Assembly: GCA_017545595.1 (NCBI GenBank)
Contig: JAFWLO010000008.1
Span: forward strand, 1 to 44,285
Direction: 5' to 3'
Length of the DNA: 44,285 nt
Source: Candidatus Saccharimonadota bacterium
GTDB taxonomy: Bacteria; Patescibacteriota; Saccharimonadia; Saccharimonadales; Saccharimonadaceae
Position numbers and translations under genes: made by a program
In this document: piece by piece, positions 39,844 to 44,092 of the stretch
Position numbering within the stretch: position 1 is the first letter of the stretch
Layout of the letters: the number at the start of each line of letters is the position of its first letter
Notes under the pieces: model-generated
What the model saw: only the letters and a program-made list of their open reading frames with translations
Databases searched by the model: none
Told to the model about the DNA's origin: nothing

Positions 39844-40674
39844 TTAGGCTTCTGAGTTTGATGAATTCGGGGTTTCTTGTGACTTCAAGAGTTTAGCATG
39901 AACTACCATACGGCTAGTATCGTCATAGCAGGTTGAGAGAGTAAGGATTTTGTCCGAAGGAGACAAACTTACTCCGAAATTGTGGTTAGAACGGGATTTT
40001 AAGGTGTTTAGGAAATAATATTTTTCTTCTATGGAAGAAAATGAGGTTTGGAGGTAGTCGGAAGTTGTCGGAATGATGTAGATTGAAAAAATTTGCCAAA
40101 CGCTCGAGGAAGTTTCGGTTTTTGTGCGGATTAGGTAGTTGTCAGGGTTTTCTAGCCAGTTGGATTTTGTGAGGTTTCGGAGGGAGCCGAACATTGTGTT
40201 GTCGAGACGGCCGTGTGCGTAGATTATATTGTTGTCATCGGTTAAATCTTGGGAGTTTCGGTAGTCGAGAAAAACCCAGCCTGCGGAGTTTCTTGAGCCG
40301 TCGAAAGATGTATAGAGGTAAAAATCGTTGTTGTAGGCTTGTACAAAGGGGTAGTTAATGTTTGTCCCGAGAACTTGAAGCCAGCCAACTGTGTCGGGGT
40401 TTTCTTGTTTAAGGGCTGAGATATTCGCCGAGAGGAAGGGGGTTTTAAGGTATTTCCAATATTGATCATCACAGGGATGACCTTCTATTTCGCAAGTTTC
40501 GTTTTCTGAATCCTCTTCCGATTCGGAAAGTTCGGCGATTTCTGTGATGTTTTCGAGGATTTTTTCGGTTTTTTCGGATTCGAGTTTATATTCGAGGAGT
40601 TTGTAACTTGAAAAAACTAGACAGAACAGGGAGAAAATGAAGATTATGCCTAAGATGAGTTTTTTCTTGTTCAT
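39844..40674 (-). CDS. Class B sortase
   Basis: A 276-residue membrane-anchored transpeptidase. Residues about 4-27 form the N-terminal membrane anchor. The catalytic domain follows class B sortases: TNINYPFVQAYNNDFYLYT, WVFLDYRNSQDL, the catalytic His in IIYAHGRLDNTMFGSL, the catalytic Cys in ILTLSTCYDD, and the Arg in SRMVVHAKLL. The enzyme cuts a sorting signal and links the protein to peptidoglycan. A candidate substrate with NPETS is encoded at 17149-18900, and two FemAB proteins that could shape the acceptor bridge are encoded at 22499-24533. The ATG is 8 nt after TGTTATAAT. Confidence 0.92.
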   Translation of the reverse strand: MNKKKLILGIIFIFSLFCLVFSSYKLLEYKLESEKTEKILENITEIAELSESEEDSENETCEIEGHPCDDQYWKYLKTPFLSANISALKQENPDTVGWLQVLGTNINYPFVQAYNNDFYLYTSFDGSRNSAGWVFLDYRNSQDLTDDNNIIYAHGRLDNTMFGSLRNLTKSNWLENPDNYLIRTKTETSSSVWQIFSIYIIPTTSDYLQTSFSSIEEKYYFLNTLKSRSNHNFGVSLSPSDKILTLSTCYDDTSRMVVHAKLLKSQETPNSSNSEA

Positions 40675-42485
40675 GAAATTATATTATAACATAAAAAGTT
40701 CGGTTGAAAAAGAGAATGGAGAGTGGTATAATTGAGGTAAGTTGGGGATTCGCCAAGTGGTAAGGCAGTGGGTTCTGGTCCCACCATTCGGGGGTTCGAA
40801 TCCCTCATCCCCAGCCAGACGCTGTATAAATCGTTTTTAGCCCCAATTTCCCCCTGTAAGGCATTGGTAAGTCCCTTACTCAAAATTGGGGCTAATTTTT
40901 TTGACGATTTTTCTAAAAATTCGAGCCATGGGTATGGCTTGACCTCTATAAATTTGGCGGTTAAGTCCCTACCATTAGCCGACTTCCCGATTTTTCGTTC
41001 AACAACCAAAACATTTGGTCCGATTGACTGTAAGATTGCTCTCTTTTCGCCAACATCCATAGCTGCGTCCATTTTAGCTTTCGGGTCTTTTAGGTTTTCT
41101 AGCGTCCTACCCACTATTTCATACCAGTTACGGTCTAAGTCTTGTGCCGCCTTATTTGCCTGCTTAGTTTTCTCAATTAAATCGTCTAATTCCTTATTCT
41201 TTGCTTCAAATACATCCTCTTTAACCATGCCTTTAACATACATGTCAATTAATCGGTCTTTACACCTTTCATATTCAGTTAGGGTAGTATGTTGCATATT
41301 AGCAATGTCGTAGCGATTTTCGATTTCTTCTCTATGGATTCGTTCGATAATCTTCTTAGACCATTCGTATAGCACTGGGTGGATAGTGTACTTATCCAAT
41401 AGCTCGTATATCTGTCTAAATGCTTCTTCTTCTTTTATACTGCCATGCATTTGACATTTCCTATATGGACTCTTTTGGGTACATTTATAGTAAATGTGTC
41501 TTCTGGTGCCACCATTTGCTAATTTCTTATCGTGGGCTTCTGCTACAATCGAGCAACCGCAACTAGCACATCTCATCAAGCCTTTTAATTCAAAGTTAGC
41601 AGAGTCTACTTTAACTTTCGGTTTAAGATTATGTACAATTGCAAATTCGCTCTTCATTCGTTGGATACGATAATACTGCTCCTCTGTAATAATTGGCTCC
41701 CAACTGCCATCGTGCAAAATATTCGGGTCGTCCATATCCCTAATTTTGCCCATATAAAAAGGATTCTCAAACATACGGTTAACAGTAGACGGCATTAAAG
41801 GGTTACCACCAGTTTTTAGGCGTTTAAGGGTCCTATAGCCATACACATTGTTAGCGATACTAGTGATTTCTGGTACGGAGTAATGGCCTGTTAAGTATAA
41901 TTCAAATAGTTTTTTAACTATATGCCAACGGTCTGGATCTTTTATTACAATTCGCTTATGGGTTAAAGGGTCTTCAGCATTTAAGTAGCCTTGTGGAGCA
42001 ACTCCTGTACAGCCGCCATTTTTATTCTTTGACCTAATACCACGACTAACTACACGAGATAGGTTTCTAGAGTATTCTGCATTCATACTAGCTTCAACGC
42101 CAAACATAATACCAGAGTCTTTTGGTGTATATTTACTGTCTGACGTATGGATTAACTGTATTTTACCGTCAAATAATAATTGTTGGACTAGACCGCTCTC
42201 TAAAGGGTTCCTTGCTAAACGGTTAGTGTGCCAACAAATAATGGCGTTTGCCTCGCCATTTTCAATTAGTTTAACCATCTTATCAAACTCCGGACGATTG
42301 TGAACCTTGCTAGCTGAGGCTGATTCTTCAAACCTAGCTACTACTTTGTAATGGTTTTCCTTTACGACTTTTTTAGCAAATTCTTTTTGGTCTGGGATAG
42401 AAGCCACCTGTCGCTCCGAGCCTTCCGAAGACTTTCGGGCATAGATGACAAATTTAAGTTTTTCCGGATTGGCTTTTCTTGCCAT
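40671..42485 (-). CDS. Large serine recombinase (integrase), reading frame running through tRNA-Gln
   Basis: A 604-residue site-specific recombinase. The catalytic domain has the nucleophile Ser19 in YARKSSE, RQVASIPDQ, and Arg89/Arg92 in CWHTNRLARNP. The Recombinase domain includes GVAPQGYLN and NPFYMGKIRD, then a zinc ribbon (CASCGC and a later CTQ...C pair) and a coiled-coil stretch. The last 47 residues (from LGMRDSNPR) are translated antisense through the tRNA-Gln gene and its promoter. The stop codon overlaps the sortase ATG. These residues come from chromosomal DNA and cannot be native to the circular element, so the C-terminus probably changes on integration. The gene abuts its attachment site, as integrases do. 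Confidence 0.92.
   Translation of the reverse strand: MARKANPEKLKFVIYARKSSEGSERQVASIPDQKEFAKKVVKENHYKVVARFEESASASKVHNRPEFDKMVKLIENGEANAIICWHTNRLARNPLESGLVQQLLFDGKIQLIHTSDSKYTPKDSGIMFGVEASMNAEYSRNLSRVVSRGIRSKNKNGGCTGVAPQGYLNAEDPLTHKRIVIKDPDRWHIVKKLFELYLTGHYSVPEITSIANNVYGYRTLKRLKTGGNPLMPSTVNRMFENPFYMGKIRDMDDPNILHDGSWEPIITEEQYYRIQRMKSEFAIVHNLKPKVKVDSANFELKGLMRCASCGCSIVAEAHDKKLANGGTRRHIYYKCTQKSPYRKCQMHGSIKEEEAFRQIYELLDKYTIHPVLYEWSKKIIERIHREEIENRYDIANMQHTTLTEYERCKDRLIDMYVKGMVKEDVFEAKNKELDDLIEKTKQANKAAQDLDRNWYEIVGRTLENLKDPKAKMDAAMDVGEKRAILQSIGPNVLVVERKIGKSANGRDLTAKFIEVKPYPWLEFLEKSSKKLAPILSKGLTNALQGEIGAKNDLYSVWLGMRDSNPRMVGPEPTALPLGESPTYLNYTTLHSLFQPNFLCYNIIS
40683..40691 (-). promoter_or_regulatory. 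Extended -10 promoter of the sortase gene
   Basis: The minus strand reads TGTTATAAT with 8 nt to the ATG. It lies back-to-back with the tRNA-Gln promoter; its spacer runs into the -35 box of that promoter. Confidence 0.6.
40704..40732 (+). promoter_or_regulatory. Promoter of tRNA-Gln
   Basis: -35 TTGAAA (40704-40709), a 17-bp spacer and a perfect -10 TATAAT (40727-40732), about 10 bp before the mature tRNA start. Confidence 0.88.
40743..40817 (+). tRNA. tRNA-Gln, anticodon CUG, CCA encoded
   Basis: The cloverleaf folds completely: acceptor TGGGGAT with ATCCCCA, D-stem GCC/GGC, anticodon stem GTGGG/CCCAC with loop TTCTGGT (anticodon CTG), T-arm with GTTCGAATC, discriminator G and an encoded CCA. 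The U1-A72 pair is typical of glutamine tRNAs. Its 3' end is the junction with the integrated element. Confidence 0.96.
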
Positions 42486-42590: not shown

Positions 42591-43466
42591 TTATGACGTT
42601 TTGCCGTTTGGCTTTTTGCTAGAAGCCTTTAAAATCATCTGAATTTTTTCAAATTCTCTTTCTGTAATCATTGGTTCCCAAGCTCCATCATGCATAACGT
42701 TTGGGTCATCTAAATCCCTAATTTTGCCCATATAAAAAGGATTTTTAAGCATTTGATGTAATGTAGTAAGCCTTAGCGGATGTCCGCCTATCCTCTGCCT
42801 TTTTTTAGTTAGATAATGATTATCGTTGTTGATGTAGCTAAGTAGTTCCGGTACACTATAGCAGCCAGTCAAATACAACTTAAATGCATTTTTGATGATG
42901 TAAAACCTTTTAAGGTCAGGAATGATAATGGGTTGATTATTCTTATCCCTTGAGTTTAAGTACCCTTGAGGTGCCATGCAACTAGGTTTTCCTTGCTTAT
43001 TCTTCAACCTAATGCCACGTTTAATAACCTCACTTAACTTCTTTGAATATTCAGTAGCCATCCTCATCGTAATGTCAGGAAGTGAAAAATAATCTTCGGG
43101 ATAATAAATCTTTTGGTCGTTAGTGCGGATAACTTTGATTTTATGGTCAAAAAGTAATTGCTGAATGATACCGTTTTCTAGTGGATTACGAGCAAGACAG
43201 CTTGTGTGCCAACATAGAATTGCGTTAGCCTTACCGTCTTCAATCATCTTTACCATTTCATCGAACTTTGGGCGATTATGTGCTTTACGTGCAGACGCTG
43301 ACTCTCGGAAGGTTTTAATAACCTTGTAGTTATTTTGCTTAGCAATTTCTTTTGCGAATTTATACTGAGTATCGAGCAAGGGTGAATGATCATTAGTATC
43401 ATCGGTGGACTTCCTCGCATAGATAATATATTTTAACGATTGTTCGCTAGTGATTTCTTTCGTCAT
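42591..43466 (-). CDS. Short serine recombinase paralogue, probably inactive
   Basis: A 291-residue paralogue of the adjacent integrase, similar along its whole length (HNRPKFDEMVKMIEDGKANA, CMAPQGYLNSRD, NPFYMGKIRDLDDPN). The nucleophile Ser20 in YARKST is kept. The Arg equivalent to Arg68 of gamma-delta resolvase is Cys90 (HTSCLAR against HTNRLAR), and the R-Q-x-x-S segment is changed (DHSPLLDTQ). It ends after the Recombinase domain, without zinc ribbon or coiled coil. The frame is intact with AGGAGAA 6 nt upstream, so it is likely expressed. It could be a decoy, a regulator of the integrase, or a decaying copy. Confidence 0.85.
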   Translation of the reverse strand: MTKEITSEQSLKYIIYARKSTDDTNDHSPLLDTQYKFAKEIAKQNNYKVIKTFRESASARKAHNRPKFDEMVKMIEDGKANAILCWHTSCLARNPLENGIIQQLLFDHKIKVIRTNDQKIYYPEDYFSLPDITMRMATEYSKKLSEVIKRGIRLKNKQGKPSCMAPQGYLNSRDKNNQPIIIPDLKRFYIIKNAFKLYLTGCYSVPELLSYINNDNHYLTKKRQRIGGHPLRLTTLHQMLKNPFYMGKIRDLDDPNVMHDGAWEPMITEREFEKIQMILKASSKKPNGKTS

Positions 43467-43492: not shown

Positions 43493-44092
43493 TTAAAATG
43501 GAATCCGGCTTGGGTCGATTTCGGGGTCGGCTGGCGGATTCGCTGTATTGTTAGAAGGTTTCTCTTCGCTATTAGTAGAAGGCTCGTCGGCAGTAGCTTC
43601 GCCGCTTTCAGCTTTGTGCTCTTTAGCTAGGCGATCTGCTCGCATTTTTGCGATATGTTCGAGATTGGTTTGTGTACGATTTTTTGGCTCGTAAACAACT
43701 ATCATTTCTAGTGGTCGTGAAATACCTGAGCGTCCTTCGTATTCGTATGGTACTGCTCTAGCAACTAATCCAACTCTCGCACCTTTTACGAGTTCGTCTT
43801 TCGAAACCTTTTTACCATCTAGGTCGATAATCTTAGTTTGAGCAGTGATTTTAAAGTAGAAAGGTATATATTTGTTGTCAGTGTACTTGTCAGTTAACAC
43901 TTTCGTACCGTTCGTTCCACGTTCATCACCGTTATGCTTTAGCCAAGTATCAATCTTGTTTTCATCGCTCTCTGGATTATTAGGGTCATCAAAAATGTCG
44001 ATTGATAAAGCTTCGCCGTATTTACTGTTTTTATCGAAGTAGCTGAGGACATAAGCATTGTCCAGCTCTAAGATATCGTTATTGTTTTCCAT
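43493..44092 (-). CDS. SSB-like single-stranded DNA-binding protein of the element
   Basis: A 199-residue soluble protein I recognise only by general features. The N-terminal 130 residues are beta-rich (PFYFKITAQTKIIDLDG, GARVGLVARAVPYEYEG), consistent with an OB-fold of phage single-strand-binding proteins. The C-terminal 60 residues are Ser/Asn/Glu/Pro-rich and disordered, ending DPSRIPF. A flexible tail with an acidic tip ending IPF or PF is the protein-docking hallmark of SSB. It has a strong AAGGAGAA ribosome-binding site and precedes the short recombinase by 26 bp. The assignment rests on this architecture. Confidence 0.55.
   Translation of the reverse strand: MENNNDILELDNAYVLSYFDKNSKYGEALSIDIFDDPNNPESDENKIDTWLKHNGDERGTNGTKVLTDKYTDNKYIPFYFKITAQTKIIDLDGKKVSKDELVKGARVGLVARAVPYEYEGRSGISRPLEMIVVYEPKNRTQTNLEHIAKMRADRLAKEHKAESGEATADEPSTNSEEKPSNNTANPPADPEIDPSRIPF

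Follow-up and report, generated by a model that had tools for sequence, protein, structure and literature searches.

The window (the whole stretch of 44,285 nucleotides that was analysed) carries the gene of a large serine integrase, which matches the PHROG 95 integrase with E=2e-68 and whose reading frame continues antisense through a tRNA-Gln gene and its promoter as far as a neighbouring chromosomal sortase gene (Table 1). The host of the element is a tiny parasitic bacterium. The half-length recombinase that adjoins the integrase has the catalytic and recombinase domains and is without the zinc ribbon; at the equivalent position, the elements of two relatives, G057 and G042, carry a shorter partial paralogue.

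Table 1. Features of the integrase, tRNA-Gln and sortase locus, with positions in the window
Feature	Position	Strand	Remarks
Chromosomal sortase gene	39844..40674	-	Neighbour of the element, outside it; ATG overlaps the stop codon of the integrated integrase
Large serine integrase ORF, integrated form	40671..42485	-	604 aa; Resolvase + Recombinase + Zn_ribbon_recom (Pfam)
Host-derived end of the integrase frame, past the core	40671..40809	-	Antisense tRNA-Gln, tRNA promoter, sortase leader
TATAAT, probable -10 box of the tRNA promoter, within the integrase frame	40727..40732	+	From the sequence
tRNA-Gln(CTG), attB gene, intact at attL	40743..40817	+	Identical in many relatives
attL core CCCAGCCA, last 8 nt of the tRNA	40810..40817	.	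Common to attR at the C13 end (L111)
Element-supplied hairpin + T-run inside integrase codons, opposite strand	40839..40902	+	-26 kcal/mol, z -3.7
Half-length serine recombinase, element gene	42591..43466	-	291 aa; 53% identical to the N-terminal half of the integrase
Element ORF	43493..44092	-	199 aa; the G023 element has a weak homologue; contig ends soon after

A sequence-only reading of this DNA had placed the last 47 codons of the integrase in the tRNA-Gln, its promoter and the sortase leader; the location proved correct, but the stretch comprises 48 sense codons and then the stop codon. The same reading had the stop codon overlapping the sortase ATG, and the TGA (40671-40673) and the ATG (40672-40674) do share an ATGA. 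This arrangement is probably a coincidence, because an in-phase frame that reaches the sortase ATGA must stop there (approximately 1 in 3), and we saw no sign that the overlap between integrase and sortase is conserved; translational coupling of the two genes was rejected as coincidence. The orientation of the genes would permit read-through from the integrase into the sortase, and the sole strong terminator-like hairpin found at the locus sits on the tRNA strand.

The contig of the window (C5) stops 3.5 kb into the element and a direct search of the window's genome for a long duplicate of the tRNA found none, so that synteny was needed to locate the far attachment site. In the relative G030, tRNA-Gln lies divergent from secE/nusG and is followed by a large ORF, and contig C13 of the window's genome has a matching flank. 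The end of C13 (L111) reads ...CTGCTTAATTTTG-CCCAGCCA-TTTTAGTTTAGACCTTTTAGGTCTTTTTTTG, i.e. 366 bp of element, the common 8-bp core (6-19 bp in relatives) and then the native hairpin terminator of tRNA-Gln and the conserved flank. Joining the two element ends gives the attP junction TTTTGCCCAGCCAGACG and a circle in which the integrase has 584 residues and ends ...SV-WLG-KIKQALTIYKEDIRQRLEDYDPESK, compared with 604 residues and ...SV-WLG-MRDSNPRMVGPEPTALPLGESPTYLNYTTLHSLFQPNFLCYNIIS (MRDSNPRMVG...NIIS) in the provirus, each followed by the stop codon. The host-derived end of the frame is absent from the circle, the far site carrying a different sequence to the left of the core. Provided that the ends of C5 and C13, between which the middle of the element is missing from the assembly, belong to one element, as synteny supports, the predicted C-terminus of the integrase is changed by integration. 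These data bear out the expectation of a different C-terminus in the circle: the codons downstream of the far site, which might have been identical, differ, KIKQALTIYKEDIRQRLEDYDPESK replacing the antisense-tRNA tail, and the crossover lies at the 3' end of the tRNA rather than far from it.

Throughout, the only far attachment sites used were those for which a terminator, synteny or homology of the tail gave support, and candidates defined by 9-10 bp matches alone, which are mostly chance, were rejected. Querying viral contigs with only the integrase turned up no close circular element, and an alignment-based scan returned 16 distant loci, none with a clear circular attP; no circular overlap was seen at the contig ends of L201, L154, L189 and L206.

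Integration parts tRNA-Gln from its own terminator, which is now at C13, and the 3' end of the integrase gene appears to encode, on its other strand, a candidate replacement. Across the elements, a hairpin with a T-run occurs just 3' of the tRNA in 28 of 52, compared with 25 of 312 control stretches drawn from those loci.

The overlap between the 3' ends of integrase and tRNA is real and beyond chance: among 58 integrases at least 500 aa long in the sequence stretches retrieved from relatives, the stop codon lies inside or beyond the tRNA gene in 52, always antisense and across 21 kinds of tRNA gene. The integrated tails of these relatives are 3 to 63 codons long, antisense tRNA-Gln is open in the same frame in other copies (L101, L180, L187 and L210), and the read-through length at the window is not special. 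As their sequence depends on the tRNA, the integrated tails look passive. The antisense-tRNA tail shows no sign of function, and we rejected it as a functional peptide since it follows the tRNA and not the integrase; the conserved tail is the one found in the circle only. A second, distant integrase lineage is present at the same tRNA-Gln (L098, L099 and L151) and ends approximately four codons inside it (NGWG and a stop codon).

The integrase family is common among 100 related genomes, mostly of Candidatus Saccharibacteria. The far attachment sites of the window's clade share tails of the form W[WYL][TG]-x-[VI]-[KQN]-[EQ]-[VA]..., namely KVQQALPVYLEENSEKHQ (G023), EVKQVVTQIKEDLLNGVNVDFAFSC (G005), LVKEVATMLKEDLMGGNCPSYLLFSH (G055), VVKEVATMLKEDLMAGICSSYLVFSH (G007), TINEVRTLIIDDLLEGKPVSFVYDQTLIGH (G057) and TVQEVRTAIEDELLNGNPIYFAYDRSSFIYRIN (G042), and a hairpin terminator follows the core at the far sites of G023, G005, G007 and G042. 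Because some of these tails were first located by the tail pattern, each was scored against every CCA site of its region; the attachment-site tail ranks first of 215-833 such sites in five of six comparisons (e.g. a score of 107 against 27 for the next) and second of 533 in that of G023 with the window. The only homologues of the window's own tail are the distant ones in G023 and G005, and the constraint on it is accordingly drawn from relatives. A minority of elements seem to be without a swappable tail, such as that of G082, whose integrase stops inside the core. Six further sites (L269, L272, L274, L276, L277 and L278) have conserved tail codons with no matching integrase listed alongside and are probably solo far-end relics; several of the six adjoin tRNA-like or terminator sequence. 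Inspected by eye, the cargo of the L077 and L081 elements includes a restriction-like methyltransferase/helicase pair with a Fic-like protein (G005) and a subtilase-like surface protein (G055), and no capsid genes were recognized in it.

The way in which these tails diverge points to constraint at the protein level. Two elements in Trp-tRNA genes, the 3.8-kb element of UBA1050 and that of G065, have the tails DIQDLFRNRTLPVLEFNLPLAKDILERHALAYDIE and DIQDLFRNRTLPILDFNLPLAKDILQRHALAYDLE, of which the first 26 nt are identical, followed by 15 synonymous compared with four conservative non-synonymous codon changes (p=3e-5), and their similarity collapses past the stop codon. Among eleven Arg-type tails, 23 of 43 changes fall in third positions (p=0.005); further codon-position tests on single pairs gave p values of 0.05-0.5, none significant alone. 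The conserved span amounts to 20-40 codons in several lineages and across different target tRNAs. In addition, the C-terminus of the integrase is contiguous with the tail in the intact integrase of L201, and decayed fusions of integrase and tail were found at L252, L265, L267 and L268 (genomes G340, G465, G386 and G006). When 393 genomes were searched with a composite of the uninterrupted Trp-type gene, a single contiguous case was returned, the decayed remnant of G340. Taken together, these comparisons point to conservation of the circular tail at the protein level among related elements, and since it is so constrained it would have to act in the circular, pre-integration form.

A similar picture emerged from the Bacteroidales loci of the same scan, in which the integrase frame enters a tRNA gene (His, Leu, Pro, Met or Asn) in antisense orientation. 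Seven far-end sequences share the tail ...LFSxxFLxDLxxIWALRxxIPxP..., with 27 of 46 changes in third positions (p=4e-4); two of these far ends, L212 (tRNA-His) and L229 (tRNA-Leu), were first located by the core itself and each is followed by a terminator. As the His and Leu targets have this tail in common, its sequence is not determined by the tRNA. Related elements that have the attachment site inside the integrase gene are found in two bacterial phyla or more. The integrase family also runs antisense into tRNA genes in L202-L232, which comprise Bacteroidales, an alphaproteobacterial bin and Dependentiae.

Where the crossover falls in the folded enzyme was assessed with an AlphaFold model of the integrase of L201, a natural homologue of that of the window. 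The model has a complete fold up to approximately residue 496, including helices at 352-399 and 405-456 that may form the long coiled-coil insertion expected in the C-terminal half of such enzymes, and the crossover tryptophan is residue 500, so integration should not break the enzyme core. The tail itself is modelled with low confidence, from an alignment with almost no tail rows and only one carrying the tail intact. The recognized domains all fall on the integrase side of the crossover.

We therefore consider it fairly likely that attP lies inside the element's own large serine integrase gene, approximately 25 codons before the true stop codon, and that integration swaps a conserved tail and so alters the enzyme. 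By this reconstruction, integration at tRNA-Gln recombines within the 8-bp core at its 3' end, leaves the catalytic, recombinase and zinc regions and the predicted coiled coil intact and exchanges the KIKQALTIYKEDIRQRLEDYDPESK tail for antisense-tRNA sequence; the severed tail codons remain at the element's other end. The other strand of the integrase 3' codons would supply the terminator lost by the tRNA. The tail most likely promotes the attP x attB integration reaction, which it might aid in synapsis, through contacts between subunits or by stabilizing the enzyme on attP. The enzyme expressed from the circle would then be integration-competent, and the tail-less enzyme made from the provirus would be weaker at integration or altered in direction, so that integration would automatically alter the enzyme and favour one-way insertion. 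More tentatively, and with somewhat less than even confidence, we suggest a widespread class of tRNA-targeting large serine integrases of Patescibacteria and Bacteroidales in which the tail is needed for attP x attB and its loss locks the product or shifts the enzyme to an excision mode, a directionality switch by which the enzyme would record the chromosomal state.

Three other accounts of the same geometry were weighed. The integrase gene may simply be packed against attP, its C-terminus changing without consequence and everything past the folded core being dispensable; the random sequence and length of the integrated tails, the completion of the L201 core before the crossover and the apparently tail-less G082 would all agree with such a passive overlap, but it sits badly with a circular tail that keeps its protein sequence over 20-40 codons, in several lineages and at different tRNAs, with an excess of third-position changes, and we judge it unlikely. 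A little less likely still is a tail that works as a degron, or as a tag that sets the stability of the circular form, such that integration would stabilize the integrase as it does the repressor of mycobacteriophage BPs (PMC4557955, PMC9262239). The geometry is the same in the two cases; however, the tails here do not end in an LAA-like manner (...PESK, ...LFSH, ...YDIE and ...TVTI) and are conserved along their whole length, not at the end alone.

It is also conceivable that the far-end codons are conserved as the DNA of an attP half-site only and not as protein. Within families, the first approximately 26 nt hardly vary, which fits the 25-bp half-site of serine integrases (PMC3783163). We nevertheless find this account very improbable, as the conservation extends approximately 80 bp past the half-site, is codon-structured and bounded by the stop codon, and is kept between elements with different cores.

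No description of a serine integrase with attP inside its gene, or with a tRNA target in such a layout, was found in the open-access literature. To our knowledge, attP lies outside the integrase gene in phiC31, Bxb1, A118 and LI, and the product is unchanged by integration. These classical enzymes share with this class the Resolvase, Recombinase and zinc ribbon domains and the short attachment core, and have a coiled coil whose probable counterpart here is the helix pair of the L201 model (PMC3783163). The suicidal integrases of the archaeal elements SSV1, pTN3 and pT26-2 likewise have attP inside the integrase gene, which is broken on integration into the target, and a review has called self-gene-disrupting integrases exclusive to archaea (PMC8371274). 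Those enzymes, however, are of the tyrosine family and are split into two inactive halves, whereas the window integrase has serine recombinase domains with no such separation of the catalytic from other essential domains; what was held to be an archaeal tyrosine peculiarity would here have a counterpart in a bacterial large serine class that keeps its whole folded core and exchanges a conserved C-terminal tail.

Since provirus-derived sequences of this class are without the true C-terminus, databases would hold wrong integrase ends (e.g. ...GMRDSNPR...), and enzymes mined from genomes as DNA insertion tools would lack a conserved part. The class offers a direct test of one-way integration by serine integrases, and, if the switch reading is true, the enzyme itself marks whether the element is chromosomal.

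The other close precedent is the integration-dependent immunity of BPs, in which attP lies inside an ORF and overlaps a tRNA target and integration removes the C-terminal 33 residues (PMC4557955, PMC9262239). In BPs a tyrosine integrase cuts the repressor gene, and the segment removed bears an ssrA-like tag, whereas here the integrase itself is altered; no ssrA-like (LAA-like) ending was present among the circular tail ends inspected, and no repressor was identified in the element stretch examined, in which attP sits in the integrase gene. In G082 (L070 and L071), the tRNA-Gly 3' end is present in two far-end copies 0.8 kb apart, at approximately 15.2 and 16.0 kb from the end on the tRNA side, and at the position of the integrase stop codon one reads TGA and the other CGA, which recalls the host-made stop codon of BPs.
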